DNA of 64,000 nucleotides from Geodermatophilus bullaregiensis (GTDB lineage: Bacteria > Actinomycetota > Actinomycetes > Mycobacteriales > Geodermatophilaceae). The stretch covers positions 3,658,001 to 3,722,000 of the forward strand of contig NZ_JAFBCJ010000001.1 in NCBI RefSeq assembly GCF_016907675.1, read 5' to 3'. A program made the position numbers and the translations under genes. Positions 18,760 to 32,003 of this stretch are shown one piece after another; position 1 is the stretch's first letter, and each line of letters opens with the position of its first letter. The notes below the pieces were generated by a model, which was given only the letters and a program-made list of their open reading frames with translations, was not told the DNA's origin and made no database searches.

Positions 18760-19407
18760 GTGCCGACTGCGACGAGCGCGCTCGACGTCGTCGACGGCGA
18801 GGTGCGCGAGCTGATCCGGCGCCGCGGGCTCGATCCGTTCACCGACCCGGCGCCGGTGCGGGTGCTGGTCCGTGACGTGGTCGCCGACTACGCCGAGCGA
18901 TCGCTGACCTCGGCGCTGCCGCCGATTCCCGATGCCGACTCGGTGGTGCGCGACGTGCTCGACCGGGTGGCCGGCTTCGGGCCGCTGCAGCGGCACCTGG
19001 ACGACCCCGAGGTCGAGGAGATCTGGGTCAACGAGCCCGGCCGGGTGTTCGTCGCCCGCCGTGGGCGCAGCGAGCTGACCACGACGATCCTGGGTGCCGG
19101 GCAGCTGGCCGACCTGGTCGAGCGGATGCTGCGCACGTCGGGGCGGCGGATCGACATGAGCCAGCCCTTCGTCGACGCGGTGCTGCCCGACGGGTCGCGG
19201 CTGCACGTGGTGATCCCCGACATCACCCGGCGGCACATGGCGGTCAACATCCGCAAGTTCGTGCTGCAGGCGCACGGCCTCGACGAGCTGGTGGCCACCG
19301 GCACGCTGACCGTGCAGGCCGCGCGGTTCCTGGAGGCCGCTGTCGCCTCCGGGCTCAACGTGCTGGTCTCCGGCGGCACCCGGGCAGGGGTGGAACCGGT
19401 ACGTTAG
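18760..19407 (+). pseudogene. tadA: tadA (pilus assembly ATPase), 5' half, interrupted by integrated element
   Basis: Residues 1-207 are the N-terminal half of a TadA/CpaF secretion ATPase: helical N-terminus, then DVLDRVAGFGPLQRHLDDPEVEEIWVN, GRRIDMSQPFVDAVLPDGSRLH and LNVLVSGGT, the strand leading into the Walker A loop. At 19381 the element begins and adds nine foreign codons before a stop. The missing half is at 28907-29530 in the same codon phase. Joining them gives SGGTQAGKTT, a normal P-loop, and a 414-residue protein of usual length. As it stands this fragment lacks the nucleotide-binding core and cannot power pilus assembly. Confidence 0.9.
19370..19400 (+). other. attL of the integrated element
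   Basis: The chromosome side (GGCGGCACC, tadA codons) meets element DNA (CGGGCAGGGG) at the core ACCC, 19378-19381. The same ACCC occurs at 28904-28907. The serine integrase gene starts 33 nt further in, the usual position next to its attachment site. Confidence 0.8.
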
Positions 19408-19413
19408 AGATCC

Positions 19414-20886
19414 ATGCCCACCCGCCGTGCAGCCATCTATGCCCGTATCAGCGTCGCTCAAGAGGCGTCGGTCAGCATCGACCGCCAGGTAGAGGCGGCG
19501 CAGCAGTACGCCTCTGCCCGGGGGTGGCAGGTGGTCGGCACCTTCAAGGACGACGGCGTGTCCGCCAGCGAGAAGAGGCCGGAGGATCGGGCCGGGTGGC
19601 GAGAGCTGCTGGAAGCTCCCCAGAAGTACGACGCCGTCATCATCTGGAAGATCGACCGGCTGTCGCGCAAGCTGCTGGACTTCCTCCACGCCGACGAGTC
19701 GTTGCAGGCGCGGAAGGCGGGCCTGGTCGGCGTCGAAGACCCGATCGACATGACGACTCCCCAGGGCCGCGCCTTCGCGCAAATCCTGGCGGTGTTCGGG
19801 CAGATGGAGGCGGACTCGATCCGTGCACGAGTGGCGGACGCTCGCGTCAAGCTCCTGAAGGACAGGCGCGTGGTCGGCGGCAAGGTGCCTTTCGGCTGGC
19901 GCAGCGTCCCCAACCCCGACGGCCCAGGGCTGGTGCTCGCCCACGACCCGGACCGCATCGACTACGTGCGGGGCATGGCCGAGCGGGTGCTGCGCGGCAA
20001 CTCGATCTACAGCGTCGTCCAGTGGCTGGACGAGGTCGGCGCACCGACGCCGACCGGGCGCGGCTCGTGGGTCTACGGCACCGTGGAGCGTATCCTGCGG
20101 CACCCGATCCTCGCCGGCATGACTCCCTTCAACCCCGGCAGCACGACCAAGGAGCGCGGCAGCAACGTCCTGCGCGACGGCGACGGCCTGCCTGTGGTCG
20201 ACGAGTCGGTGGCGATCCTGCCGGTGGCCGACTGGCGCGCGCTCGTGGCGAAGTTGGACGACAACGACAGCGCGCAGTCCAGGCCCCGCGCGCTCCGGTC
20301 CAAGACTTCCGCGCTCCTGTCGGGCCTGCTGTGGTGCGGCGAGCATGGCGGCGATGGAATCCGGATGCACCGGTGCACGGTGAACGGTCGCCACGGGTAC
20401 ACCTGCCCCGAGTGCTCGCAGGTGATCTCGAACTTCGAGCACCTCGTGGTGGCGGAGTTCCTGCGGCAGAAGGGTGAGCGGGTGCGCTGGACGCGCGTCG
20501 AGGAAGTGCACGAGGGCGGCGCGGCGCTTCTCCCCGAGATCGAGCACCGGCTCGACGAGCTCGACCAGCTTATCCGGCAGGCCACCGACCGCGAGGTGCG
20601 GCGCGAGCTTCAACAGCAGCAGGCCGACCTCCTGGACCTGCGGGACGCCAAGCGCGAGGAAGCCCCGAACGTATCGCTCCGCTACGAGGACGCCGGGTGG
20701 TTCGAGGACGCCTGGGCGAGCGCGGGGGAGGACGTCGAGGCCCAGCGAGCGGTGCTCGACGACGCCATGGAGCGCATCTGGGTCCGGCGTGGCGGCACGG
20801 GCCGACGCACACCCGCGCAGGTGCTCGCCCGGTTGACGATCGACTGGAAGGTGCCCGAGGATCTCGGCCCGGTCGATGGGGTATAA
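19414..20886 (+). CDS. int: Large serine integrase
   Basis: 490 residues. The resolvase catalytic domain has the nucleophile Ser13 in YARIS, KIDRLSRK and the helix with FGQMEADSIRARV. The recombinase domain follows (VPFGWR; ILRHPILAG), then a zinc ribbon with LLWCGEHGG and YTCPECS, and a C-terminal coiled-coil (LDELDQLIRQATDREVRRELQQQQADL). These parts define unidirectional phage integrases that join attP and attB across a 2-bp core. It begins 33 nt inside attL. There is no Shine-Dalgarno; TTAGAGAT close to the ATG hints at a leaderless start. Excision would need a directionality factor, probably one of the next three small genes. Confidence 0.95.
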   Translation: MPTRRAAIYARISVAQEASVSIDRQVEAAQQYASARGWQVVGTFKDDGVSASEKRPEDRAGWRELLEAPQKYDAVIIWKIDRLSRKLLDFLHADESLQARKAGLVGVEDPIDMTTPQGRAFAQILAVFGQMEADSIRARVADARVKLLKDRRVVGGKVPFGWRSVPNPDGPGLVLAHDPDRIDYVRGMAERVLRGNSIYSVVQWLDEVGAPTPTGRGSWVYGTVERILRHPILAGMTPFNPGSTTKERGSNVLRDGDGLPVVDESVAILPVADWRALVAKLDDNDSAQSRPRALRSKTSALLSGLLWCGEHGGDGIRMHRCTVNGRHGYTCPECSQVISNFEHLVVAEFLRQKGERVRWTRVEEVHEGGAALLPEIEHRLDELDQLIRQATDREVRRELQQQQADLLDLRDAKREEAPNVSLRYEDAGWFEDAWASAGEDVEAQRAVLDDAMERIWVRRGGTGRRTPAQVLARLTIDWKVPEDLGPVDGV

Positions 20887-20922
20887 CGGCTGGTCAGAAG
20901 CGGGATTCAGACACACGTAGCG

Positions 20923-21043
20923 TATGCTCGTAGTTGGCTAAAGCGCTGAGCGGCTTACGCGTGAGGCTTGGGGGCAGACGCCCGAGGGAAACCAAGACGA
21001 GGCCGGGCTAGTTGCCTGGCCGGTGCACTTGGGAGTACCCCCA
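20923..21043 (+). promoter_or_regulatory. Promoter and structured leader of the satellite early operon
   Basis: TATGCT (20923-20928) is a good -10 just after the integrase gene. The ~110 nt before the first small gene can form two hairpins: CTTGG...CCAAG around GGGC...GCCC, and GGCCGGGC-tagtt-GCCTGGCC. They may be regulatory or simply GC-rich folding. Confidence 0.4.
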
Positions 21044-21256
21044 GTGGCCGATCCTGTCCTGTCCGCTCGTGGCCGCCTCGCCGGTCTGATGAGCCGCCCC
21101 GGCGCCACCCCTGCTGCCATCCTCGAGGCCAAGCGCGAGCTGAACTGCGCAAACGCCGAGCGAGCCATCCAGAAGGCGCTCGACGTCGCCCCGCCCCTCA
21201 CCGCCGAGCAGCGGGCCCGCCTCGCGGTGCTGATCGTGGGCGGTGGATCGAAGTGA
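21044..21256 (+). CDS. Small satellite protein, unknown
   Basis: 70 residues, helical and charged: VLSARGRLAGLMSR, then EAKRELNCANAERAIQKAL and PPLTAEQRARLAVLIVGG. The pattern is like small conserved proteins of actinophages, but I cannot assign a function. The GTG at 21044 follows GGGAG by 8 nt; an earlier GTG at 21023 would add seven residues. It overlaps the next gene by 4 nt. In phiRv1 the excisionase lies between integrase and primase, so this and the next two genes are candidates for that role. Confidence 0.6.
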   Translation: MADPVLSARGRLAGLMSRPGATPAAILEAKRELNCANAERAIQKALDVAPPLTAEQRARLAVLIVGGGSK

Positions 21257-21567
21257 CCGCCGCGTGCAGCAAGGTCCCCGTCGTCACGCCGACGCTCGAC
21301 CTGCCGCTGGAGCTGCGGGAGCGCTGCTGCCTCATGGCGGCGCAGATGGCCCTGCACAACAACAGCATGGTCGTGCTGGTCGGCCAGACCGCGCAGGACG
21401 AGATGCTGATCTGCGCCGACGGCTGCTGCGCCTCCCGGCCACGCTCAATCGCCGTGGTGGCTGACACCGAGGCGATCTCGCGGTGGGGCACGGCTCCCAA
21501 GGGCGCCATGTCCATGTCGCGGGCCGACGGCCGGACTGCGTACGTGTTCCAGGGCGGTGCCCGGTGA
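21253..21567 (+). CDS. Small satellite protein with Cys pairs, unknown
   Basis: 104 residues starting at GTG in a GTGA overlap. It has RERCCLMAAQMAL and ADGCCAS Cys pairs around a hydrophobic strand (SMVVLVG), and ends with a short beta-rich segment (GRTAYVFQGG). No family recognised. The tight overlaps on both sides show it belongs to one translationally coupled early operon. Confidence 0.6.
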   Translation: MTAACSKVPVVTPTLDLPLELRERCCLMAAQMALHNNSMVVLVGQTAQDEMLICADGCCASRPRSIAVVADTEAISRWGTAPKGAMSMSRADGRTAYVFQGGAR

Positions 21568-21809
21568 ACGCCGTCCTGACGCGCACCTGGAACGACCTCG
21601 CCCGCGACGTCTGGCCCGGCGCGAGCTGGGTCCTCGGTGAGGGTCGATTCGCCACCGTGCGGAACTGCGGCGCCACCACCGTCCTGCTGCACCCGACCGA
21701 GGAGCAGGCGCGGGCAGCCCTGCGGACGATGCACGCTCAGGGCGCGGGCGGCCGGTGCCAGCTCCGTCACGCCCTGGTCGAGCTGCATCGGGGCCGGGCC
21801 CATGAGTGA
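21564..21809 (+). CDS. Small satellite protein, unknown
   Basis: 81 residues, GTG start overlapping the previous stop. It contains WNDLARDVWPGASWVLGEGRFATVRNCG and TVLLHPTEEQARAALRTMH. It is basic at the C-terminus. I do not recognise it; by position it could be a regulator or recombination directionality factor. It overlaps the primase gene by 8 nt. Confidence 0.55.
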   Translation: MNAVLTRTWNDLARDVWPGASWVLGEGRFATVRNCGATTVLLHPTEEQARAALRTMHAQGAGGRCQLRHALVELHRGRAHE

Positions 21810-23946
21810 CACGGAAACGGGCCCCCACAAGGAGAGCCCGTCCGAGGTCCGTGCTGCTGCCAGGCGAGCGGAGACCAAGATCAACGATACCCCCAGCGTC
21901 CCTGACGTCGCTGGGATGAGCGTGCTCGATGCGGCGCTCGCCTACGCCGAGGCGGGCCTGTACGTCGGCCCGCTGAAGCACCGGAGCAAGCACCCCGGGT
22001 CGATCCTGGGCGACGGCTGGCCCACGCTGACGAGCCGCGCCCCGGCCGTCATCCGCAGGTGGTTCCCCGAGGGCACGGACCGGGGGGTCTTCCTCCACTG
22101 CGGTCGGTCGGGTCTGGTCGTGCTCGACGTGGACAAGCCGGAGAACCTGCACGAGCTGCTGGATCTCGCGGTGACGGAGTGCAGCCCTCCCTGGCAGAAC
22201 ACGCGGCCCGCTCAGGCTGACCGCAGGCACTACCTGTTCCGGATGCCCGGGGGTCGTGTGCTCGGCAACAGCACCGGCTCCCTCGGCGGCACCTGGGGCG
22301 AGGTGCGAGGCCGCAACGGCGTCATTGTCGTGGCCCCGTCGGAGCATGCGGACCCGGACGGCCTGTACGCCTGGGGCCACGTCGGCCCAGTGCCGGAGCT
22401 GCCCGACTACGTCGCCCAGGAGCTGCCCGACTACCTAGACAGTGCCGAGGCCGCGACGAGCGCCGACGTGGAGGCGTTCATCGCCGAACACGACAGCGGC
22501 GACCGCCTTGGTCTGCTCGACCGGCTGGTGGCCGGCTGGCTCGCCAAGGTCGAGGCGGGGGAGTCCAGGCACGACACCATGTCGGGCCACCTGACCGGCG
22601 CGATGAAGGAGGCTGCGGCCGGGCTGTACCCCGCGCACGAGGCGGTGCGAGCCCTCGGAGACGCCTTCTCCAAGGCGGTCGCCGTCGATGGTGACGGTCC
22701 CAGCCAGGGGGCGGCTCGCAGCTCCGAGAAGGCAGCCCAGGAGTGGGAAGGGCTGCTGTCGTGGGCGGTCGCTCAGGCCAAGGCGGCTGACCCCGCCGCC
22801 ACCCTGGCTCGGGCGGAGGAGTACGGCGCCAGCGACCCTGCCGACGACTTCGACGTGGTGGCCCGGGTGGAGCCGGTGGACACCTTCGCGGAGGAGGTCG
22901 CCAGGCACGCGCACGCCATGCGTGTCCGGAAGGCCGCGCAGGAGCTCCTCGCCCGGGAGGAGCGGGAGGAGGTCGAGCTCCCGGAGCTCACCAGCCTGGC
23001 CGAACTCCTGGAGGAGCCGGACGAGGAAGCCCGCTACCGGGTGGACGGCCTGATGCCCACTGGCGGTCGGGTGGTGCTCGCCGCGCCTCACAAGGCCGGC
23101 AAGACCACCATGATCGCCAACCTCGTGCGCTGCCTGGTGGACGGGGGCGACTTCCTGGGCCGGTTCAAGGTGGAGCCCGCCCAGCGCGTGGTGCTGCTGG
23201 ACAACGAGCTGGACCGCCGCATGATCCGGTCCTGGATGCGCGACCAGTCCATCGAGAGCACCAAGGCTGTCGAGGTGCTGGCGCTGCGGGGCAAGCTGTC
23301 CGGCTTCAACATCCTCGATCCGGTGGTGCGGGCCGAGTGGGCAGCCCGTATCGGCCCGGCCGACTTCATGGTGTTCGACTGCCTGCGCCCTGCCCTCGAC
23401 GCCCTTGGGCTCAGCGAGGACAAGGACGCCGGACGGTTCCTGGTGGCCCTCGACGCGCTGGTGGCCGAGGCCGGGATCGGCGAGCTCTTCGTCGTTCACC
23501 ACATGGGGCACAGCAACGAGCGGTCCCGGGGCGACAGCCGCATCCTCGACTGGCCGGACGCCATCTGGAAGGTGGTCAAGGCCGACGCCGAGGACCACAG
23601 CTCTGCCCGGTTCTTCAGCGCCTACGGGCGTGACGTGAACCAGCCGGAGTCGCAGCTGGCCTACGACGCCGACACCAGGCGGCTGTCGCTGTGCGGAGGC
23701 TCCCGCCGCGAGTCGCGAGGTAGTGCGGTCGAGGCGGCGGTGTTCGCCTTCGTGCAGGACAACCCGGGGTGCTCCGGCGGGGACATCGAGCGGGGCGTCC
23801 AGGGCGACAACAACGCCATCCGGCAGGCGCGCACCAACCTCATCGCGGCGCGGCTCCTGCGGGCGGTGGACGGCGGTCCAGGCAGGGCCAAGAAGCACTA
23901 CCTGGGCGACAACGGAGCCTCCGACTTCGCCGAGGAGGCCGCGTAG
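21802..23946 (+). CDS. Bifunctional primase-polymerase/RepA-like helicase of the satellite
   Basis: 714 residues. The N-terminal half is a prim-pol domain: ALAYAEAGLYVGPL, then HCGRSGLVVLDVD with the acidic metal ligands, and RRHYLFRMPGG. The C-terminal half is an AAA/RecA-type motor with Walker A APHKAGKTT and Walker B FMVFDCLRP, and VVHHMGHSNERSRGDSRI. A winged-helix-like end (AFVQDNPGCSGGDIE) completes it. Such proteins start replication of phages and satellites by binding and opening an origin, then priming. A repeat-rich candidate origin follows immediately. The ATG overlaps the upstream gene. Confidence 0.85.
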   Translation: MSDTETGPHKESPSEVRAAARRAETKINDTPSVPDVAGMSVLDAALAYAEAGLYVGPLKHRSKHPGSILGDGWPTLTSRAPAVIRRWFPEGTDRGVFLHCGRSGLVVLDVDKPENLHELLDLAVTECSPPWQNTRPAQADRRHYLFRMPGGRVLGNSTGSLGGTWGEVRGRNGVIVVAPSEHADPDGLYAWGHVGPVPELPDYVAQELPDYLDSAEAATSADVEAFIAEHDSGDRLGLLDRLVAGWLAKVEAGESRHDTMSGHLTGAMKEAAAGLYPAHEAVRALGDAFSKAVAVDGDGPSQGAARSSEKAAQEWEGLLSWAVAQAKAADPAATLARAEEYGASDPADDFDVVARVEPVDTFAEEVARHAHAMRVRKAAQELLAREEREEVELPELTSLAELLEEPDEEARYRVDGLMPTGGRVVLAAPHKAGKTTMIANLVRCLVDGGDFLGRFKVEPAQRVVLLDNELDRRMIRSWMRDQSIESTKAVEVLALRGKLSGFNILDPVVRAEWAARIGPADFMVFDCLRPALDALGLSEDKDAGRFLVALDALVAEAGIGELFVVHHMGHSNERSRGDSRILDWPDAIWKVVKADAEDHSSARFFSAYGRDVNQPESQLAYDADTRRLSLCGGSRRESRGSAVEAAVFAFVQDNPGCSGGDIERGVQGDNNAIRQARTNLIAARLLRAVDGGPGRAKKHYLGDNGASDFAEEAA

Positions 23947-23952
23947 ATGGCT

Positions 23953-24096
23953 ACCCCGCTGACCCCGCTGGACCCCCGCTGGCAGCTGGGTCAGCGGGGT
24001 TCACCCCACCCACCCCGCTGCCCCGCTTCAGAAGCGGGGCGGGTGGTGGTGGTGGCCCCAGAGCGGGGCCGAGCGGCCCTTCCATTCGCAGCGGGG
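23953..24096. repeat. CCCCGCT iteron-like cluster, candidate replication origin
   Basis: In the 340-nt gap after the primase gene the heptamer CCCCGCT or its complement occurs about nine times in 145 bp. Two larger dyads are built from it: ACCCCGCTGACCC (23953-23965) with its exact complement at 23988-24000, and CCCCGCTTC-A-GAAGCGGGG (24021-24039). Position next to the initiator gene suggests an origin; a transcription terminator is the alternative. The rest of the gap to 24286 is C-rich and shows no gene. Confidence 0.55.
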
Positions 24097-24286
24097 TGGT
24101 GGTGACCCCCTGCCTGGTGGCCGACTCACGAGCGTCCCCCCTCCCGGTCGCGGATGGGGCCCCCACCCCGTTACAGCCACAGCCGGCCCCGGGGCTGGGA
24201 GAGGGCCCCTCCCAGGCTCACGGCCCACCCCCGCTGCCACCCCACCCCCACAGACCGCCCCACCCGCGGACCCCCAAGGAGCTCCC

Positions 24287-24766
24287 ATGCCTGACGACCT
24301 GACCGTGGCCTTCACCGACGCGGCCGACGCGACGCAGCAGCAGCCGGCAACGCGCGCAGCCATTTGCCCGGAGTGCGGCGGGGCGCAGTTGCTCAACCAT
24401 CCGGCAGGGCTGCTGGTGTTCGCGCACTGCACCGTGCGCGGCTGCTCGCTGCAGGACGCCGAGGACTCGCGAGTCATCGCGGACCAGTCGCTGGCAGGCG
24501 TTCGCGGCTGGCCGTTCGCGCGCCCGACGACGAACACGGAGCGGACGCTGCTCGCGGCTGCGGGCTACGAGCTGCCTGCTGACGCGGTGACGGTCGTGGA
24601 CTGGCTGACCACCGCCGTGCGCCGTCGCCGGTGGCCCGCCGCAACGGTGGTGGTGGCCTCGCCCGAGCCGACGGAGCCCGTCACGACGACGGAGCCCGTC
24701 ACGACGACGGAGCCGACGCCCGAGTCGACGACGACGGACGCCACCGTGTCGCCCGACGCGGCGTGA
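24287..24766 (+). CDS. Small zinc-ribbon-like satellite protein
   Basis: 159 residues. A CPECGG...HCTVRGC arrangement near residues 26-50 suggests a zinc ribbon. A helix with ERTLLAAAGYELP follows, then a low-complexity Thr/Glu/Pro tail including two copies of TEPVTT. AAGGAG lies a few bases before the ATG. Similar small Zn proteins occur in phage replication or late-control regions, but I cannot assign a role. Confidence 0.6.
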   Translation: MPDDLTVAFTDAADATQQQPATRAAICPECGGAQLLNHPAGLLVFAHCTVRGCSLQDAEDSRVIADQSLAGVRGWPFARPTTNTERTLLAAAGYELPADAVTVVDWLTTAVRRRRWPAATVVVASPEPTEPVTTTEPVTTTEPTPESTTTDATVSPDAA

Positions 24767-24923
24767 CCGGACGCGCCGTGGTTTCCGTGGAGACCTCCGC
24801 ACCGGCAGGAGGGGTGGGGGGCCATCCCTCCCCGGGGGCTGTGTCTCTGGCGGGCCGGTCTGGTCTTTCCAAGACGCGACCCCTGAACCGCTTCGACCCT
24901 CAACCCCCTGGAAGGACCCCGAA

Positions 24924-25268
24924 ATGACCACGAACCCCACGAATCTCAGGGCCGCCGGCAAGCGGCTCTGGGCGTCCGTCGCCGACGAGTACGACCTCGA
25001 CGAGCACGAGTCGGCCATCCTCCTGGAGGCCGCGCGCACCGTCGACCTCCTGACCCAGCTCGACGCGGCGGTGAGGCGGGACGGCCCGCTGGTGTCCACC
25101 GACCAGGGGCCCAAGGTCCACCCGGCGGCGGTGGAGGCCCGTCAGCAGCGCATCACGCTGGCCCGCCTGATCGCGGCACTCCGCCTGCCCAACGAGGAGA
25201 CCGGGGCCCGGCCGCAGCGGCGGGGTGGGGCTCGCGGCTCCTACGGCATCCGCGGAGCCGTCAAGTGA
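24924..25268 (+). CDS. P27-type phage terminase small subunit
   Basis: 114 residues with the P27 TerS pattern: LRAAGKRLWASVADEYDLDEHESAILLEAARTVDLL, then QGPKVHPAAVEARQQRITLARLIAALRLP. Small terminases recognise the packaging site and guide the large terminase. No large subunit is present, so this one may redirect a helper phage motor to satellite DNA, as known for SaPI-type islands. An AAGGA-like site precedes the ATG. It overlaps the next gene by 4 nt. Confidence 0.8.
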   Translation: MTTNPTNLRAAGKRLWASVADEYDLDEHESAILLEAARTVDLLTQLDAAVRRDGPLVSTDQGPKVHPAAVEARQQRITLARLIAALRLPNEETGARPQRRGGARGSYGIRGAVK

Positions 25269-25537
25269 AGCGCAAGGAGGTCGCCGTCGAGACGGCCCTG
25301 GCCTCGATCCCCGACTGGGTGCTCCGGCTCGCCCCTCCGCCGGAGGAGCTCATGCCGCCCATCCCGCCCATGGACCCTGCCTTCTGCTTCCCCGAGGAGT
25401 GGTGGGTCCGCATCAGCAACGACGGCGCAGCGGCCGACCTGCGCCGCCGCTGGCTCGCCAAGCACGCCCCCGACCTGACTTCCCGACAGGTCTGGGCCGA
25501 GGCCCAGCGCCGCCGCACCGAGAGGACCGCACTGTGA
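25265..25537 (+). CDS. Small satellite morphogenesis-region protein, unknown
   Basis: 90 residues starting at GTG in a GTGA overlap. It has a Pro-rich middle (PPPEELMPPIPPMDP), WWVRISN and a basic helical end (LRRRWLAKHAPDLTSRQVWAEAQRRR). It lies between small terminase and scaffold-like genes, so a packaging or head-assembly role is likely by position only. Confidence 0.5.
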   Translation: MKRKEVAVETALASIPDWVLRLAPPPEELMPPIPPMDPAFCFPEEWWVRISNDGAAADLRRRWLAKHAPDLTSRQVWAEAQRRRTERTAL

Positions 25538-26043
25538 CCGCCCCGACCACCACCAGCACCAACCCGAAGGAGACCACCGTGACCAACCCCGCCCCGAACA
25601 CCACCGTCGAGCCGGCTCAGACGGCCGAGACGGACCCGAAGGGCACCCACGCGCCCGAGGGCACCGACCCGCCGGTCGAGACGGGAGAGGGGAACCGAGA
25701 GGCCGCTGCCTACCGGCGGAAGCTCCGTGACGCCGAGGCCGAGCGCGACCGGCTGGCCTCGGCGGTGACCACCTACCAGCGGCGCGACGCCGAGGCCCTG
25801 GTCGGCTCCCGCCTGCTGTCGCCCGCCGACCTGTGGGTGGCTGGCGCCAAGCTGGAGGACCTGCTGGCCGACGACGGCACGGTGGACCCGGCGAAGGTCG
25901 ACGCCGCCGTGGACACGGTCCTGGAGGCCCGGCCTCACTGGAAGCCCCAGGGCCCCCGCGTGCCCCGCGACATGGGCCAGGGGCAGCGCGGTGGGACGGT
26001 CGGCGGAGGCACCAGCTGGGCTGACGTCATCGGTGGTCGCTGA
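25534..26043 (+). CDS. Scaffold-like protein
   Basis: 169 residues. A disordered Thr/Pro/Glu N-terminus leads to a helix with AAAYRRKLRDAEAERDRLASAVTTYQRR, a predicted coiled coil, and a Gly-rich C-terminus (GQGQRGGTVGGGTSWADVIG). This layout directly before a capsid gene is typical of phage scaffolding proteins that guide head assembly and are then removed. The GTG start overlaps the previous gene by 4 nt. No head protease gene is visible. Confidence 0.65.
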   Translation: MTAPTTTSTNPKETTVTNPAPNTTVEPAQTAETDPKGTHAPEGTDPPVETGEGNREAAAYRRKLRDAEAERDRLASAVTTYQRRDAEALVGSRLLSPADLWVAGAKLEDLLADDGTVDPAKVDAAVDTVLEARPHWKPQGPRVPRDMGQGQRGGTVGGGTSWADVIGGR

Positions 26044-26188
26044 GGTCCGAGGTAACCTTGTCGCCGGACCGGTCGGCTCGCCCAGGTGGCAGCCCCGGTC
26101 CGGCGACTGCCCCAGGAGGGCACCGAGGAAGCGCCCGTGGCGCTGACCTCCACCACATCCCCTCGCCCTCCTGAAGGAGCACATCACC

Positions 26189-27022
26189 ATGACCATGACC
26201 CGCGCCAACGGCGCCGTCATCCTCACCCCTGCCCAGGTCGCCGAGCTGCTGGTGCAGCCGGTCGGCGCCGAGTCGGTCGCGATGCAGGTGGCCACCGTCG
26301 TGAACACCGGCAGCAGCGTCTACCGGATCCCCCTCGTGACCGCAGATCCGCAGGCGGCGTGGGTGTCCGAGGGGGATGAAATTGCCCCGAGCGACGCCGT
26401 CCTGTCCGAGGAGGACGTGCACCCGAGCAAGGTGGCCGGGTTGACGATCGTGACGAGGGAGCTGGCCGAGGACTCCTCGCCGGAGGCCGCTGCCACCGTC
26501 GGCGCTGGCCTGGCCCGCGACATCGCCCGCAAGGTCGACGCCGCGTTCTTCGGCAATCTGGCCTCCCCGGCCCCGGCCGGTCTGGGCAGCCTCGCCGTCG
26601 GTGCAGGCAACGTGCAGGCCGTGGACGCCGGTGCCGCCTTCGCCTCCCTCGACCCCTTCGCCGAGGCGCAGTCGCTCGCGGAGGGTGTCGGCGCGCTGCT
26701 GACCTCCTTCGTGGCGAACCCCGTGGACGCGCTGGCCCTCACCACCCTGAAGGTCAGCACCGGCTCGAACCAGACCCTGCTGGGCGGCCAGCGCTCCATC
26801 AACGGCGTGCCCCTGCTCACGTCGCCCTCCGTCCCGGCGGGGACCATCTACGGCATCCCGCAGGACCGGGCGGTCGTGGTGGTCCGCGAGGACGCCACCG
26901 TCGAGACGGACTCGTCGGTCTTCTTCACCTCGGACCGCGTGGCCGTCAAGGCCGTCATGCGGGTCGGCTTCGGGTTCAACCACCTGGCCGCCCTGGTCAA
27001 GATCACGACCGGGCCTGACTGA
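26189..27022 (+). CDS. HK97-fold-type major capsid protein
   Basis: 277 residues matching the capsid pattern of actinophages: SVAMQVATVVNTGSSVYRIPLVTADPQAAWVSEG, TIVTRELAEDS, ARDIARKVDAAFF, and near the end YGIPQDRAVVVVRED and SDRVAVKAVMRVGFGF. It is compact (HK97 gp5 is 385) and has no long delta domain, in line with a separate scaffold. AAGGAG precedes the ATG by 9 nt. Coding for its own capsid but no portal, tail or motor makes this a capsid-bearing satellite. Confidence 0.8.
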   Translation: MTMTRANGAVILTPAQVAELLVQPVGAESVAMQVATVVNTGSSVYRIPLVTADPQAAWVSEGDEIAPSDAVLSEEDVHPSKVAGLTIVTRELAEDSSPEAAATVGAGLARDIARKVDAAFFGNLASPAPAGLGSLAVGAGNVQAVDAGAAFASLDPFAEAQSLAEGVGALLTSFVANPVDALALTTLKVSTGSNQTLLGGQRSINGVPLLTSPSVPAGTIYGIPQDRAVVVVREDATVETDSSVFFTSDRVAVKAVMRVGFGFNHLAALVKITTGPD

Positions 27023-27068
27023 GCTGGGTTCGACTCGCTCCGGCCGGGGTGAACACAACTCCGCCCCC

Positions 27069-27240
27069 CACCTGACGGAACCAGGTGAGGGGCGAAGGCA
27101 CCGCCCCCGTGGACTTGGCACCGGGGGCGGGCGCGAGGGCCCTGCCCCCTAGACCGTTCCTCCTTCCAATCCAGGGGGCGGTGGCCCGCCTCGACGCACA
27201 CCGCCCCCACCGACTGTTGCTCGACAGGGGCGGTTGTGTG
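27069..27240 (+). terminator. Tandem terminator-like hairpins after the capsid gene
   Basis: Three dyads follow each other: CACCTG/CAGGTG (27069-27074/27082-27087) inside a C/G-rich stem; CCGCCCCCG/CGGGGGCGG (27101-27109/27122-27130); and ACCGCCCC/GGGGCGGT (27200-27207/27227-27234), the last followed by a T-rich run (TGTGTGTGTTT). They would end the capsid transcript ahead of the opposing cargo gene. Confidence 0.6.
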
Positions 27241-27302
27241 TGTTTGGGGGCTCAGCCCTCGATGGCCGCCCAGGCGGCGTCGCGCCAGTTAGCGTTTGGC
27301 AC

Positions 27303-28223
27303 TCAAACTCTTCTGCTCCACCACTGAAGTCCCCATCCGTCGGGTGCGCAGGTGTCCCCCAAGTACGGCCACCACTTGACCCCGTCCGTCCCCCTTGATA
27401 GGGCGTTCATGCAGTTGTTGTAGTAGTCGTTCATGAGCCGGGCACGAACGCCTGGCTCCCGGAGATCAAGACCGGCACCAAGGTCATGCCAAAGTTGGCG
27501 CTCCCCACCGTTGCATGGGTGGGTGTAGACGTCCTCAGTCGTATTCCAATCACGATCACGGGCGTCTAGGCAGAGGCCTGTCTGTACATTTTGAATAACC
27601 ATCGGGTCCTCGCCCCCGACGCCCACGCGCTTGTACATGATCCACTTCTGGTAGTTCCCGCCGTTGCAGTCGATCATGTACACCTCGCCGGTGTAATCGC
27701 TGTCCAGGCACTTCCCTTCCCCCGCCCATTCCTGATGCAGAGTTCGAACCACCGGAGGGTATGGCCCAGGGTGCGCTGGTGGCTCCCCCGTCGACTGTGC
27801 GCGGTGGGAAGCATTGTTGTTCTTCAACTGGCTACTTAAATTGCCCTTGAATCCCGGTGCGACTGCCTGAGAGGCGACTGATGCATCGTAATTCGAGTTG
27901 TAGTAGACGATGACCGTCTCGCTGGTGCGGTTCCAGACGGACGCAGCGCTATTTTTGATGCACTGGTTGTACCCGCTGCGGCCCTTGGTCATGAAGACAT
28001 AGCATGTGGCTGGGTCAGTACCGTAGTTCGCGAGGGACAGAAGTTCGGCCGGGAAGTCCGAGATTGAGCCGGCATTGTTGCTATTGTAGTAGTAGCAAAA
28101 CTCGCCAGAGTCGCACGCACCATTGCGCGAGGCTGCATGCGCTGGTGGCATTGGAATGACCATTGAGACTGCGAGAACAAGGGCTAGGCCAATCAGAATG
28201 CGAGTAATCTGTGCCGTCTTCAT
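27303..28223 (-). CDS. Secreted I36-inhibitor-like plus ricin-B-lectin-like protein (satellite cargo)
   Basis: 306 residues. A Sec signal peptide (MKTAQITRIL, hydrophobic core, PPAHA-A) is followed by a peptidase-inhibitor I36-like domain: CDSGEFCYYYNSNN, later CYVFMTK and a third Cys pair. From about residue 155 a ricin-type beta-trefoil appears with CLDSDYTGEVYMIDCNGGNYQKWIM and repeated QxW-like ends. The gene is clearly lower in GC than all neighbours and uses a TTA leucine codon (129; 27837-27839), so it was probably acquired recently. A GAGG lies 3 nt before the ATG. It faces the phage genes, as lysogenic-conversion cargo often does. Target unknown. Confidence 0.75.
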   Translation of the reverse strand: MKTAQITRILIGLALVLAVSMVIPMPPAHAASRNGACDSGEFCYYYNSNNAGSISDFPAELLSLANYGTDPATCYVFMTKGRSGYNQCIKNSAASVWNRTSETVIVYYNSNYDASVASQAVAPGFKGNLSSQLKNNNASHRAQSTGEPPAHPGPYPPVVRTLHQEWAGEGKCLDSDYTGEVYMIDCNGGNYQKWIMYKRVGVGGEDPMVIQNVQTGLCLDARDRDWNTTEDVYTHPCNGGERQLWHDLGAGLDLREPGVRARLMNDYYNNCMNALSRGTDGVKWWPYLGDTCAPDGWGLQWWSRRV

Positions 28224-28512
28224 GGTCCTCGCCTCGGAGATCGAAGGAGTCCGGCGGTCGTCGCCCCCTGGGAGTGTAGAGGTTCCGCCCGTCTGCAGCG
28301 CCTTGTCAAGCCTTAATCTGCCTCAATGCCGATGGGTGATCCGGGGAAGAACCTCCTTGTGTACGGCGGGCCCTGTAACTTAGCGTAGTTAGAGAGTAGC
28401 CACGGTCACGGAGGGGGCTAGGGGGTAGGCACCACGCTGCGACAAGAGCGGATCAAGTGGAGCACTGCGGCAGAGCGGGCGCTAGGACAGGGCTTCTGCC
28501 AGGCTCGCCGCT
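28224..28512. other. Lower-GC intergenic stretch in satellite cargo region
   Basis: No gene found. Composition is less GC-rich than the chromosome, as in the cargo gene next to it. It should contain the promoter of the cargo gene on the minus strand and of the small gene at 28513, but no clear element stands out. Confidence 0.4.
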
Positions 28513-28857
28513 GTGACTGAAGCCGAAGGAACAGTGCCGCCGGACGTAGCCGAGGCGCTGCTCGCACTTCAGGGCCTGGTCAACGAGCTCGTGGCGAAGA
28601 CGCTCGGCGCGGCGTCGGCGATTGGCGAGGTCCACACCACTGCTGGCACTGCTACTGCGATTGCTACTGCATCTGGGACGTGGAGCTTCACGGGCACGGC
28701 CATTGGCCAGGCACCGCCACTGACACCAGAGCACGTGACGGCGCTCCGGCGTTACGCCAAGAAGCTCGCTGCCGGAACCGTTGTGGCTGTCGCGGTTATC
28801 GGGGAGCTGGACGCACTGGCGAGCTTCGCCGAGCGCATCCTTGACCTCATGCAGTAG
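28513..28857 (+). CDS. Small satellite cargo protein, unknown
   Basis: 114 residues. A helical start (PDVAEALLALQGLVNELVAKTLG) is followed by a Thr/Ala-rich stretch (TTAGTATAIATASGTW) and a helical end with LRRYAKKLAAGTVVAVAVIGELDALASFAERIL. No family recognised and no signal peptide. The GTG start has no strong ribosome site. It is the last gene before attR and lies 46 nt from the crossover core. Confidence 0.5.
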   Translation: MTEAEGTVPPDVAEALLALQGLVNELVAKTLGAASAIGEVHTTAGTATAIATASGTWSFTGTAIGQAPPLTPEHVTALRRYAKKLAAGTVVAVAVIGELDALASFAERILDLMQ

Positions 28858-28880
28858 GGAGGGCCTGGCCGGGAGCGAAC

Positions 28881-28920
28881 GTTTCCGGTAACTACCGGGT
28901 CGTACCCAGGCGGGCAAGAC
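28881..28920 (+). other. attR of the integrated element
   Basis: Element DNA (ACTACCGGGTCGT) joins tadA DNA (AGGCGGGCAAGACG) at the core ACCC, 28904-28907. Combined with attL it predicts an attB of GGCGGCACCCAGGCGGGCAA in tadA, with no base gained or lost. Confidence 0.8.
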
Positions 28921-29530
28921 GACCCTGCTGAACTGCCTGTGCGCGGCGATCCCGGCGCGGGAGCGGGTGGTCACCTGCGAGGAGGTCTTCGAGCTGCGGG
29001 TGCCGCTCCCCGACGTCGTCGCGATGCAGACCCGCCAGCCCAACCTCGAGGGCGCCGGTGAGATCCCGCTGCGCCGGCTGGTCAAGGAGGCGCTGCGGAT
29101 GCGGCCCTCGCGGATCGTCGTCGGCGAGGTGCGCCAGGAGGAGTGCCTCGACCTGCTCATCGCGCTCAACAGCGGCCTGCCCGGCATGTGCACGCTGCAC
29201 GCCAACAGCGCCCGCGAGGCCGTGGTGAAGATGTGCACGCTGCCGCTGCTGGCCGGTGACAACATCGGCCACGCCTTCGTCGTCCCGACGGTGGCGGCAA
29301 GCGTCGACCTGGTCGTGCACGTAGCCACCGAGCCCTCGGGGCAGCGGCGGGTGCGCGAGGTCGTGGCCGTGCCGGGCCGCGCCGAGGACGGCGTCGTGGA
29401 GCTGGCCGACGTCTTCACCACCCGGGACGGGCGACTGGTCCGCGCGGAGGGCTTCCCGCCGCACCCGGAGCGCTTCGCCGCGGCCGGGTTCGACCTGGCC
29501 GCGCTGCTCGAGGTGCCGACGTGGAGCTGA
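28907..29530 (+). pseudogene. tadA: tadA (pilus assembly ATPase), 3' half
   Basis: The reading frame resumes at codon CAG (28907-28909): QAGKTTLLNCLCAAIPARERVV completes the P-loop, then VTCEEVFELR (Asp-box region), RLVKEALRMRPSRIVVGEVR with the Walker B/arginine region, and LHANSA with the His box typical of TadA/VirB11 ATPases. It has no start of its own beyond internal codons (for example GTG 28967). It overlaps tadB by 10 nt, so tadB-tadE are probably co-transcribed with tadA and lose their promoter while the satellite is present, unless a promoter inside the element reads out. Confidence 0.9.
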
Positions 29531-30384
29531 CCGGGGCGCTGCTCGGGCTGCTGCTCGGGACGGGACTGCTGCTGGTGTGGCGCAGCGGTCCGCGGGCGCC
29601 GCGGCGCAGGACCGGTCCGCGCCCACCGGGACGCCGCGCGCAGCTGCTCGCCGCGGCCGGCCTGACCGGTACCAACCCGGCCCAGCTCGCCGCGCTGCAG
29701 ATCGGGCTCGGGGCGCTGGCGCTGGTCGTCGTCCTGCTGACCACCGGCACGGTCACCGTGAGCCTGGCCTTCGGCGTCTTCGGGTTCGTGCTGCCGCACG
29801 TGCAGGTGCGCCGGCTGGCCACCCGCCGCCGCGCCGACCTGCGCGAGGTGTGGCCGGAGGTGGTCGACAACCTCGCCTCCGCCGTCCGGGCCGGGCTGTC
29901 GCTGCCCGAGGCGCTGTCGGCGCTGGGCACCCGCGGTCCCGAGGTGTTGCGGCCCCCCTTCCTGCGCTTCGCCGCCGACCACCGCTCCAGCGGCCGGTTC
30001 GGCGAGAGCCTCGACCGGCTCAAGACCGACCTCGCCGACCCGGTGGGCGACCGGATCGTCGAGACGCTGCGGGTGGCCCGGGAGGTCGGCGGCAGCGACC
30101 TCGGCCGGGTGCTGCGGACGCTGGCCGGCTTCCTGCGCGAGGACGCCCGCGCCCGCGCGGAGCTCGAGACCCGCCAGGGCTGGGTGGTGCAGGCCGCGCG
30201 GCTGGCCGTCGGGGCACCGTGGGTCGTCCTGCTGCTGCTGGCCACCCAGTCGACCACGCTGGTCGCCTACGACTCCCCGCTCGGGACGGCGCTGCTGCTC
30301 GGCGGCGGCGCGGTCTGCCTGGTCGCGTACCGGCTGATGCTGCGCATCGGGCGGCTGCCGCAGGACGTCCGGGTGCTCCAGTGA
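29521..30384 (+). CDS. tadB: Tad pilus inner-membrane platform protein TadB
   Basis: 287 residues of the T2SSF fold. Two membrane helices sit near the N-terminus and two near the C-terminus, with a cytoplasmic helical bundle between: PEVVDNLASAVRAGLSLPEALSALGTRGP and LRVAREVGGSDLGRVLRTLAGFLREDARARAELETRQGW. It anchors the TadA motor and, with TadC, drives pilin polymerisation. GTG at 29521 lies inside the end of tadA, and its TGA overlaps the tadC start (GTGA), so translation is coupled along the operon. Confidence 0.85.
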   Translation: MELTGALLGLLLGTGLLLVWRSGPRAPRRRTGPRPPGRRAQLLAAAGLTGTNPAQLAALQIGLGALALVVVLLTTGTVTVSLAFGVFGFVLPHVQVRRLATRRRADLREVWPEVVDNLASAVRAGLSLPEALSALGTRGPEVLRPPFLRFAADHRSSGRFGESLDRLKTDLADPVGDRIVETLRVAREVGGSDLGRVLRTLAGFLREDARARAELETRQGWVVQAARLAVGAPWVVLLLLATQSTTLVAYDSPLGTALLLGGGAVCLVAYRLMLRIGRLPQDVRVLQ

Positions 30385-31322
30385 GTGCCGCGCTGGCCGG
30401 CGTGCTGCTGGGGCTGGCCGCGGCGGCCGGGCTGCTGCTCGTGGTCGCGTTCGCGCCGCCGTTCCGCGCGGTGCGGCTGGTCGACCGGCTGGCGCCCTAC
30501 GTGCACGACACCCCGCCGCCGTCCCGGCTGCTCGGGACGGCGACCGAGCCCGGGCTGCTCACCGCCGCCCGGCGGGTGTTCGGCCCGGTGGTGGCCGACG
30601 GCGCCCGCCTCGTCGACCGGGTGCTCGGCGGCCGCTCCGCCGTCCGCCGGCGGCTCGACGCCCTCGGATCCGACCAGACGGTGGAGGACGTGCGCGTCGA
30701 GCAGGTCGTGTGGGGCGGCCTCGGCCTGCTCGGCGCCGCGCTGCTCGCGACGGCCGGGTCGCTGCTGGCCGGGAGCGTCAACGTGCTGTCGGTGGTGCTG
30801 CTGTGCGTGGCCGGCCTGCTCGGCGGTGTGCTCGGCCGCGACTGGTGGTTGACCCGGCAGGTGCACCGCCGGGAGGAGCTGCTGCTCGCGGAGTTCCCGG
30901 TGGTGGCCGAGCTGCTGGCGCTGGCCGTGACGGCGGGGGAGAGCCCGACCGCGGCGATCGCCCGGGTGACCCGTCTGTCCGGCGGTGAGCTGGCCCGCGA
31001 GCTGGGGAGCGCGCTGGGTCGGGCGCGGGCCGGGGTGCCGTTGACGGAGGCACTGCAGCAGGTGGCCGACCGCACGTCGGTCGACGCGCTGGCCCGCTTC
31101 GTCGACGGCCTGCTCGTGGCGATCGAGCGCGGCACGCCGCTGGCCGAGGTGCTGCGGGCGCAGGCCGCCGACGTCCGGGAGGCCGGCAAGCGCCGGCTGC
31201 TGGAGGCCGGCGGCCGCAAGGAGATCCAGATGATGGTGCCGGTCGTGTTCCTGGTGCTGCCGGTCACCGTCCTGTTCGCCCTGTTCCCGGGGCTGATCAG
31301 CATCGTCTCGCTGGCGCGGTGA
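30381..31322 (+). CDS. tadC: Tad pilus inner-membrane platform protein TadC
   Basis: 313 residues, also a T2SSF protein: EFPVVAELLALAVTAGESPTAAIARVTRLSGGELARELGSALGRARAGVPLTEALQQVADRT and the C-terminal helix MMVPVVFLVLPVTVLFALFPG. It pairs with TadB in the membrane. An N-terminal extension (FAPPFRAVRLVDRLAPYVHD) is common in actinobacterial members. It starts in a GTGA overlap with tadB. Confidence 0.85.
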   Translation: MSAALAGVLLGLAAAAGLLLVVAFAPPFRAVRLVDRLAPYVHDTPPPSRLLGTATEPGLLTAARRVFGPVVADGARLVDRVLGGRSAVRRRLDALGSDQTVEDVRVEQVVWGGLGLLGAALLATAGSLLAGSVNVLSVVLLCVAGLLGGVLGRDWWLTRQVHRREELLLAEFPVVAELLALAVTAGESPTAAIARVTRLSGGELARELGSALGRARAGVPLTEALQQVADRTSVDALARFVDGLLVAIERGTPLAEVLRAQAADVREAGKRRLLEAGGRKEIQMMVPVVFLVLPVTVLFALFPGLISIVSLAR

Positions 31323-31351: not shown

Positions 31352-31558
31352 ATGCGGGCCTGGGCCTGGCTGGTGGCGATCGGAGCGGTGCTCGCCGCGC
31401 GGCTGCGGAGCAGCGATCCCGAGCGGGGCGACGTGCCCGGCTGGGTGATGATCACGGTGATGACGGCGGCGCTGGTGCTGGCCATCCTCATCCCGTTCCG
31501 CGAGGCGATCGTCGCCGCGGTGACGAATGCGCTGGCCTCCGTCACCACCGGTGGGTGA
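31352..31558 (+). CDS. Flp-like minor/major pilin of actinobacterial Tad locus
   Basis: 68 residues. After a short N-terminus comes ERGDVPGWVMITVMTAALVLAILIPF, a Glu/Asp-rich site before one hydrophobic helix, which is the shape of Flp-type pilins cleaved by a prepilin peptidase. The ATG at 31352 has GGAGGAGG just before it; the frame is also open from GTG 31319. It sits between tadC and the tadE genes, where the pilin is expected. It differs from the classic Flp sequence, so the pilin call is by position and shape. Confidence 0.65.
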   Translation: MRAWAWLVAIGAVLAARLRSSDPERGDVPGWVMITVMTAALVLAILIPFREAIVAAVTNALASVTTGG

Positions 31559-32003
31559 AGGACCTCGCCGCCCCCCACGCTCGGCGCGGGCCCGTGCGGC
31601 GAGGCCGTTCCACCGGGTCGCCAGTGAGCGGGGGAGTGCCGTCGTGGACTTCGTGCTGGTGTCGGTGCTGATCGTGGTGCTGCTGCTGGCGGTGCTGCAG
31701 GTGGCCGTCTACGTGCACCTGCGCAACGTGGTGACCGCCGGCGCGCAGGCCGGCGCGCGGTACGCGGCCAACGCCGACGTGCCCACGAGCGCGGCCGCCG
31801 GGCGGACGCTGGCCGTGGTCGCCCGGGCGACGTCGGTGGACACGGCGCAGGGGCTGGTGTGCACGGCGGGCGAGGAGGTCGACGGCACCGGGTTGACGCT
31901 GGTGACGGTGCGCTGCTCGGGGGCGGTGCCCACGCTGCTGGCCGGGCTGGGGGACCTGCTGCCGCTGGCGGTCACCGGCCGGGCGGTGGAGGAGGCGCCG
32001 TGA
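31551..32003 (+). CDS. tadE: TadE-like pseudopilin
   Basis: About 150 residues. ERGSAVVDFVLVSVLIVVLLLAVLQVAVYVHLRNVVTAGAQAGARYAA is the TadE signature: a positively charged N-terminus, Glu/Asp five residues into a long hydrophobic helix, then a small periplasmic domain with two Cys. The GTG at 31551 overlaps the previous stop; ATG 31527 is an alternative. TadE-type proteins are processed like pilins and support pilus assembly. Confidence 0.8.
   Translation: MGEGPRRPPRSARARAARPFHRVASERGSAVVDFVLVSVLIVVLLLAVLQVAVYVHLRNVVTAGAQAGARYAANADVPTSAAAGRTLAVVARATSVDTAQGLVCTAGEEVDGTGLTLVTVRCSGAVPTLLAGLGDLLPLAVTGRAVEEAP

Follow-up and report, generated by a model that had tools for sequence, protein, structure and literature searches.

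The window analysed here is a stretch of 64,000 nucleotides (nt) from Geodermatophilus bullaregiensis (NZ_JAFBCJ010000001.1, positions 3,658,001 to 3,722,000), the genome of which is one contig of 5.2 Mb. In this window the tadA gene of a Tad pilus operon is interrupted in its Walker A codons by an element that, judging from its gene content, is likely a phage satellite with a capsid gene of its own. The element is one case of a convergence of integrases on this pilus operon, which is real and larger than was recognized in an earlier note made from the sequence of the window alone. The features of the locus are listed below, with lengths in amino acids (aa); ORF stands for open reading frame and TerS for small terminase subunit.

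18760..19377, plus strand: 5' part of tadA, 206 codons (PF00437)
19378..19381, plus strand: ACCC, attL core in the Walker A codons (flank joining and comparison with a twin element in Blastococcus, described below)
19414..20886, plus strand: large serine integrase, 490 aa (PF00239, PF07508; phrog_95, 2.5e-84)
21023..21256, plus strand: small ORF, 77 aa, kept in the Blastococcus element (55%)
21802..23946, plus strand: primase-polymerase with AAA_25 ATPase, likely a replication protein (PF09250, 1.9e-26; PF13481, 2.4e-24); start codon chosen by us within the longer ORF 21637-23946
24287..24766, plus strand: 159-aa ORF, kept in the Blastococcus element (59%)
24924..25268, plus strand: TerS (phrog_1496, 2.4e-20)
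25534..26043, plus strand: head scaffolding protein (phrog_4708, 6.6e-6); start codon chosen by us within the ORF 25225-26043
26189..27022, plus strand: HK97-type major capsid protein, 277 aa (PF05065, 7.5e-28)
27303..28223, minus strand: predicted secreted protein with inhibitor-I36 and ricin-B-lectin-like domains (domain matches), cargo between capsid and attR
28513..28857, plus strand: 114-aa ORF, no family match in Pfam and PHROGs scans
28904..28907, plus strand: ACCC, attR core (flank joining)
28908..29530, plus strand: 3' part of tadA, from Q-A-G-K-T-T onward (TadA match)
29521..30384, plus strand: tadB, open frame (PF00482)
30381..31322, plus strand: tadC, open frame in the window (PF00482, 7.8e-15)
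31527..32003, plus strand: TadE-like pilin (PF07811)

The element in the Walker A codons of tadA

The two copies of ACCC, attL at 19378 and attR at 28904, are 9,526 bp apart. The tadA flanks, when joined by script, gave SGGTQAGKTT within a single open frame of 415 aa without a stop; the intact TadA of a relative in the same genus has 412 aa. The boundaries, the intact frame of normal length after removal and the reading of a capsid-encoding, satellite-like element, all of which the earlier note had claimed, were borne out, the last by matches for the capsid, TerS, scaffold, serine integrase and primase-polymerase. In the integrated state the 5' frame of tadA enters the element for 9 codons and stops at 19407, and, as far as can be read from the letters, no full TadA is encoded at this locus. 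The claim that the motor is disabled thus holds for the window locus and not for the genome, where two further uninterrupted TadA-type genes were found.

AC is common to attL and attR in both the window element and its twin, and a crossover at AC leaves the sequence of the relatives as attB. The crossover dinucleotide of the integrase is most likely AC, GG and GC five to seven bases further on being shared as well. A highly conserved attB, which had been proposed as the reason for the choice of the P-loop, was not borne out at the DNA level: among 40-nt windows of tadA in 25 intact genes, the 40 nt around the site of the window lie at the 28th percentile of conservation and the other junction positions at the 48th to 85th, so that conservation of the site alone does not explain its choice.

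Pfam and PHROGs scans of eight ORFs of the element, a set that leaves aside several small ones (up to about 110 aa), gave no portal, head protease, connector, large terminase or tail gene. The capsid of the element is the sole PF05065 match in the host genome; by this search, which was confined to the one capsid type, the genome holds no helper prophage of the same kind. Among phage records, its capsid is most similar to those of 11-kb phages of Mycolicibacterium aichiense (36% identity over 98%). Viral contigs gave no match to the window integrase and one, at 40%, to the window capsid.

A twin of the element, about 9.67 kb long, lies between the same tadA codons in Blastococcus sp. CT_GayMR19 (genome G029), so another element at this codon, as the earlier note had suggested looking for, does exist. 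Its presence in a second genus makes the choice of site more than a coincidence. Compared with the window element, its integrase is 83%, its scaffold 57% and its capsid 61% (tblastn) or 64% (genome search) identical, and its cargo differs, being a DUF3644 protein; it also encodes an HNH protein. The DUF3644 protein (L022 4731-5870) is 96% identical to that of an element at tadA nt 450-466 of G108 (L087 12195-13325), which has a tyrosine integrase; cargo therefore moves between kinds of element. A scan of genome contigs gave two loci, the Blastococcus twin and a weak match in a Mycobacterium metagenome-assembled genome. In 397 genomes of the order, the window integrase had matches in five, two of them outside the family (G265 and G347), and no tad match was found in the loci of these two, nor in those of four integrases that are 29-33% alike (L027 to L030). 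Capsids 80% (L115, G022), 66% (L116, G006) and 40% (L119, G014) identical to that of the window were seen elsewhere in chromosomes.

Insertions into tadA and tadC in the family and beyond

With an intact TadA as the query, all 112 of 112 Geodermatophilaceae genomes gave a match, paralogs included. The window-type tadA has an uninterrupted full-length frame in 66 of the 112, which confirms the expectation of the earlier note that intact copies would be found in relatives; it is split in 28, and its class was not assignable in 18 because of contig ends, low completeness or lack of a close full-length tadA. The split share among the genomes where tadA could be judged is therefore 28/94. In seven of the 66 uninterrupted genes the match contains one TGA, and in the four that were examined this is codon 410, the natural end. 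A gene was called split when at least one junction of tadA with other sequence lies inside a contig (G000, G010, G016, G019, G021, G022, G024, G029, G031, G033, G039, G040, G041, G044, G047, G050, G051, G053, G055, G056, G062, G076, G079, G084, G101, G104, G107 and G108). The pieces are on different contigs in G019, G024, G033 and G039, and one junction only is visible in several genomes, among them G016, G022, G040, G041, G079, G084 and G104. The junctions fall into the following clusters of the 1,239-nt tadA; these ranges do not take in the right-hand end of G031, at nt 621, or that of G101, at nt 646.

nt 256-280: 4 genomes
nt 450-466: 11 genomes
nt 617-629: 2 genomes, the window and its twin
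nt 632-650: 8 genomes
nt 701-720: 7 genomes
nt 869-870: 3 genomes (G021, G033, G041)
nt 887-902: 2 genomes

In G033 (L075, L100), the break has a copy of tadA nt 701-870 on either side, a 170-nt repeat, and one element may carry a piece of tadA. Since G033 has this segment twice, the boundary at 869-870 may belong with that at 701, in which case the positions number six rather than seven. Two or more insertions are present in 7 of the 28 split genes (G021, G022, G024, G031, G039, G056 and G084). A lone copy of tadA codons 1-89 was also seen in G051 (L088 240-506), about 2.6 kb before the main 5' piece.

The pilus gene tadC is used as well. In five genomes (G054, G002, G036, G008 and G088) an integrase lies at codon 289-292 of tadC, which is equivalent to 31246-31254 of the window; the stretch of the window's tadC that matches the integrase places in these genomes is 31246-31278. 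Only the downstream side was observed in G054 and G036. The tadC integrases of G054, G002 and G036 are 45-53% identical to that of the window, and those of G008 (L169 2602-4848) and G088 (L170 8337-6090), with an intact tadA upstream, are nearer to the integrases at tadA nt 632-650 (38%). Because the two groups differ, two serine integrase lineages use one place in tadC. The tadC stretch of G088 includes 315 nt that are 70% alike to the TerS gene of the window. These five splits were met by chance and without a dedicated search, so at least five is the proper reading. The hotspot is the whole tadA gene, not the P-loop only, plus tadC.

The set of serine integrases comprises 23 proteins, that is, 26 profile matches minus four short or second pieces plus that of L128. 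The tree was made from the 20 full-length ones, leaving out three partial ones, and those of G008 and G088 are absent from it. The tadC integrases of G054 and G002 form the sister clade (100/99 for the pair) of the clade to which the window element belongs (100/100), and the integrases of 632-650 and 701-720 make up clades of their own. The site labels required 8 changes for 9 labels, a value as low as which was reached in 0 of 200 shuffles; the clade of a serine integrase matches its insertion site. Tyrosine integrases 92-98% identical occupy site 450-466 in eight genomes and one about 87% identical in a ninth, and G055 has a serine integrase there. Likewise, at site 256-280 the integrases of G024 and G084 are of the tyrosine type and that of G062 is of the serine type, so that the two kinds share two tadA positions.

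The inserts are of several kinds. Capsid-encoding elements lie at 617-629 and, in G056 (538-aa capsid) and G040 (capsid 56%), at 701-720; the G040 element resembles a remnant and is followed by no more than 24 codons of tadA. G107 has a TerS-bearing element of 7.7 kb. Inserts of about 17 to 35 kb carry tyrosine integrases and are probably conjugative or mobilisable. An insert of 60 kb in the tadA P-loop of G047 (L061, L117, L118, L062; a single-contig genome of 5,322,497 bp) contains CHAT-SIR2, WD40, TPR, transposase and other domains in the eight ORFs scanned.

A search with an integrase of the 632-650 clade in the 397 genomes of the order gave 56 matches in 50 genomes. Thirty of these loci were fetched, and tad genes were sought within about 1.5 kb. 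A tad gene adjoins the integrase in 12 of the 30, seven of them outside the family: the integrase is at the tadA P-loop in G123 and G248, at the P-loop of another TadA type in G226 and G244 and at tadC in G171; in G195 and G114 short matches alone place a tad gene beside it. Titles and abstract openings in the literature, a coverage that takes in few subscription papers, yielded nothing about elements in tadA of actinomycetes.

Relation to known small elements

Phage-inducible chromosomal islands (PICIs) are one of the nearest described kinds. An integration gene and a major capsid gene in a phage-like chromosomal region, which make a candidate PICI in the loose sense of PMC10654092, are both present in the window element, and by its sequence it fits that definition. 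Compared with capsid-forming PICIs as defined in PMC10690885, it has its own capsid gene and TerS, and the Blastococcus twin has an HNH protein; however, portal, head protease, connectors and large terminase were not found in the eight scanned ORFs, and on the genes predicted here it fails this stricter definition. The candidate PICIs of Mycobacterium in PMC10654092 are likewise small chromosomal elements with a serine or tyrosine integrase and a capsid, some with helicase, terminase or scaffold. They differ in their places, which are tRNA genes for the ones with a tyrosine integrase and other sites for the ones with a serine integrase, and the words tad and pilus are absent from the main text of that paper.

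The 11-kb Mycolicibacterium aichiense phages (e.g. Alyssa1, OR387110) share a serine integrase, a capsid and small size with the window element, but they have annotated head-tail adaptor, stopper and tape measure genes and were deposited as phages. OR387110 and 11 more records of about 11 kb from this host, one of which is annotated with capsid, tape measure and serine integrase genes, resemble satellites or very small phages; a literature search on these phages found nothing.

Readings of the convergence on Tad pilus genes

We consider it about an even call that the whole pattern is explained as follows: a likely satellite sits at one ACCC, where its serine integrase would have put it, insertions at six or seven positions interrupt this tadA across the family and likely silence the Tad pilus, and the convergence benefits the elements. 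The serine integrase of the window element would recombine attP with an attB having AC as crossover bases, an excision factor would be supplied from elsewhere, and a helper phage would supply the large terminase, portal and tail. During integration the TadA of the window cluster would not be made. Least sure is the final step: unrelated elements may converge on tadA and tadC because silencing of the Tad pilus benefits them, and the benefit would most likely be a block of DNA uptake, through which recombination could erase the element. The anatomy of the element, the twin at the same codon, the splits and their junction clusters, the tadC splits, the integrase tree, the tyrosine integrases at 450-466, the tad genes beside 12 of the 30 loci from the order and the sparing of a paralog argue for this reading. 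So do the part of tad genes in transformation of Micrococcus luteus and the insertions known in competence genes, both taken up below, and the presence of ComEC in the window genome.

The paralog in question is a second tadA (P-loop GGTGTGKT in the window genome), which, among the matches listed, reads as one full frame in 87 genomes and is interrupted in the remaining one of 88; G094 has a contig-end fragment, and the other 23 genomes have no close paralog among the matches listed. The sole split, in G104, is at the P-loop of the paralog beside a serine integrase of the 632-650 clade. The integrase at this paralog (L127, L128) is 78% identical to the integrase in the other tadA of the same genome. 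The difference between 28/94 for tadA and 1/88 for the paralog among the matches listed (Fisher p=1.8e-8) is only indicative, because of that restriction and because the genomes are related.

Selection on the split genes was compared with that on intact ones. Median omega was 0.120 in split tadA (27 genes) and 0.106 in intact tadA (25 genes; p=0.20). The 27 are 26 of the 28 split genes (G041 had no usable codon and G062 fewer than 100) plus G096, which counts as unclassified above; pieces that contained indels were discarded, so some genes are partial (G055, 150 codons). The 25 intact genes are gapless full-length matches from 30 loci (L032-L060 and L024), out of the 66 uninterrupted ones. No significant relaxation of selection was found in these 27 split genes, and the insertions are therefore young, reversible, or both. 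Decay of split tadA, considered as proof of permanent loss, was not found.

The main rival, and a serious one, is that tadA is simply a safe site, dispensable and conserved enough for integrases, the loss of which brings the element no benefit and is of no consequence to the host. This would suit the two other intact TadA genes of the window genome, the 7 of 28 split genes with two or more insertions and the slightly, not significantly, higher omega of the split genes. It sits less easily with the use of six or seven positions in tadA together with tadC of the same operon, with the sharing of two positions by serine and tyrosine integrases and of the tadC position by two serine lineages, and with the near absence of splits in the paralog. 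On balance we find the safe site doubtful, though a real contender.

In the earlier note the satellite was proposed as a possible pilus switch. Such a switch, an active lysogeny, would have it leave tadA in certain conditions, so that the gene is restored and piliation comes on, to the host's benefit. The exact frame upon removal agrees with this, but such a frame is expected of any site-specific integration; the open frames of tadB and tadC and the lack of significant relaxation agree as well, the last leaving room for reversibility as such. The regulated switch is unsupported. Two other TadA genes are intact; one excision would not restore the 7 of 28 genes with two or more insertions; the element in G040 looks like a remnant; the site DNA is not unusually conserved; and no excision was seen in the single assembled state examined. 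The switch is thus the least supported of the readings and seems to us very improbable.

Receptor removal is also unlikely, if somewhat less so. Here the Tad pilus would be the receptor for rival phages, which the resident element excludes by splitting tadA. The convergence of unrelated elements on a pilus operon would be explained, and the DUF3644 cargo gene of the twin would fit competition between elements; on the other hand, islands with tyrosine integrases have no evident need to exclude phages, and we know of no pilus-dependent phage of Geodermatophilaceae, no search aimed at one having been made.

Several points weigh against a benefit from silencing, too. The two further TadA genes of the window genome are intact, and the multiple insertions are explained by a dispensable safe site as well. 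Greater need of the paralog, rather than weaker targeting of it, could be why it is spared, and conservation at the window site is no higher than in the remainder of tadA. Among the fetched loci of the order, 18 of 30 have no tad gene within about 1.5 kb of the integrase, and no phage family was found among the eight ORFs scanned in the 60-kb insert of G047. ComEC is encoded in the window genome but also in 10 of 14 control genomes, so it is widespread. On the supporting side, a part for tad genes in DNA uptake is carried over to these hosts from Micrococcus luteus. In M. luteus, as reported in PMC4322843, transformation as well as pilin display needs both tad clusters, and transformation is lost on deletion of tad genes, with polar effects possible. 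Because two clusters are needed together there, intact TadA paralogs need not rescue a split tadA.

Insertion of mobile elements into competence genes has been interpreted as protecting the elements from being removed through transformation (PMC4774983). In the cases described there, divergent integrases converge on the DNA-uptake genes comYC, comFA, comM and comK, comFA being used at two sites; the present case differs in concerning Tad (Flp) pilus genes, in Actinomycetota, with six or seven positions in one gene. By analogy, the pattern of tad insertions bears the same signature as competence-gene disruption, with more sites. It is quite possible, though we stop short of calling it probable, that Geodermatophilaceae and other actinomycetes use Tad pili as their machinery of DNA uptake, and that satellites, islands and other elements with unrelated integrases each evolved to cut the motor gene tadA or the platform gene tadC, which would prevent curing by transformation and would be a Tad-based counterpart of the disruption of comM, comYC and comK. 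To our knowledge, natural transformation through Tad pili has not been demonstrated in this group of actinomycetes.

A tadA reported as missing or truncated in such genomes may be an insertion, and serine integrases of several clades, the target codons of which are mapped within a single gene, may be of use in genome engineering. Should the pattern be driven by selection for silencing, these actinomycetes are predicted to transform naturally by way of Tad pili, and the conflict between transformation and mobile elements would become testable in Actinomycetota.

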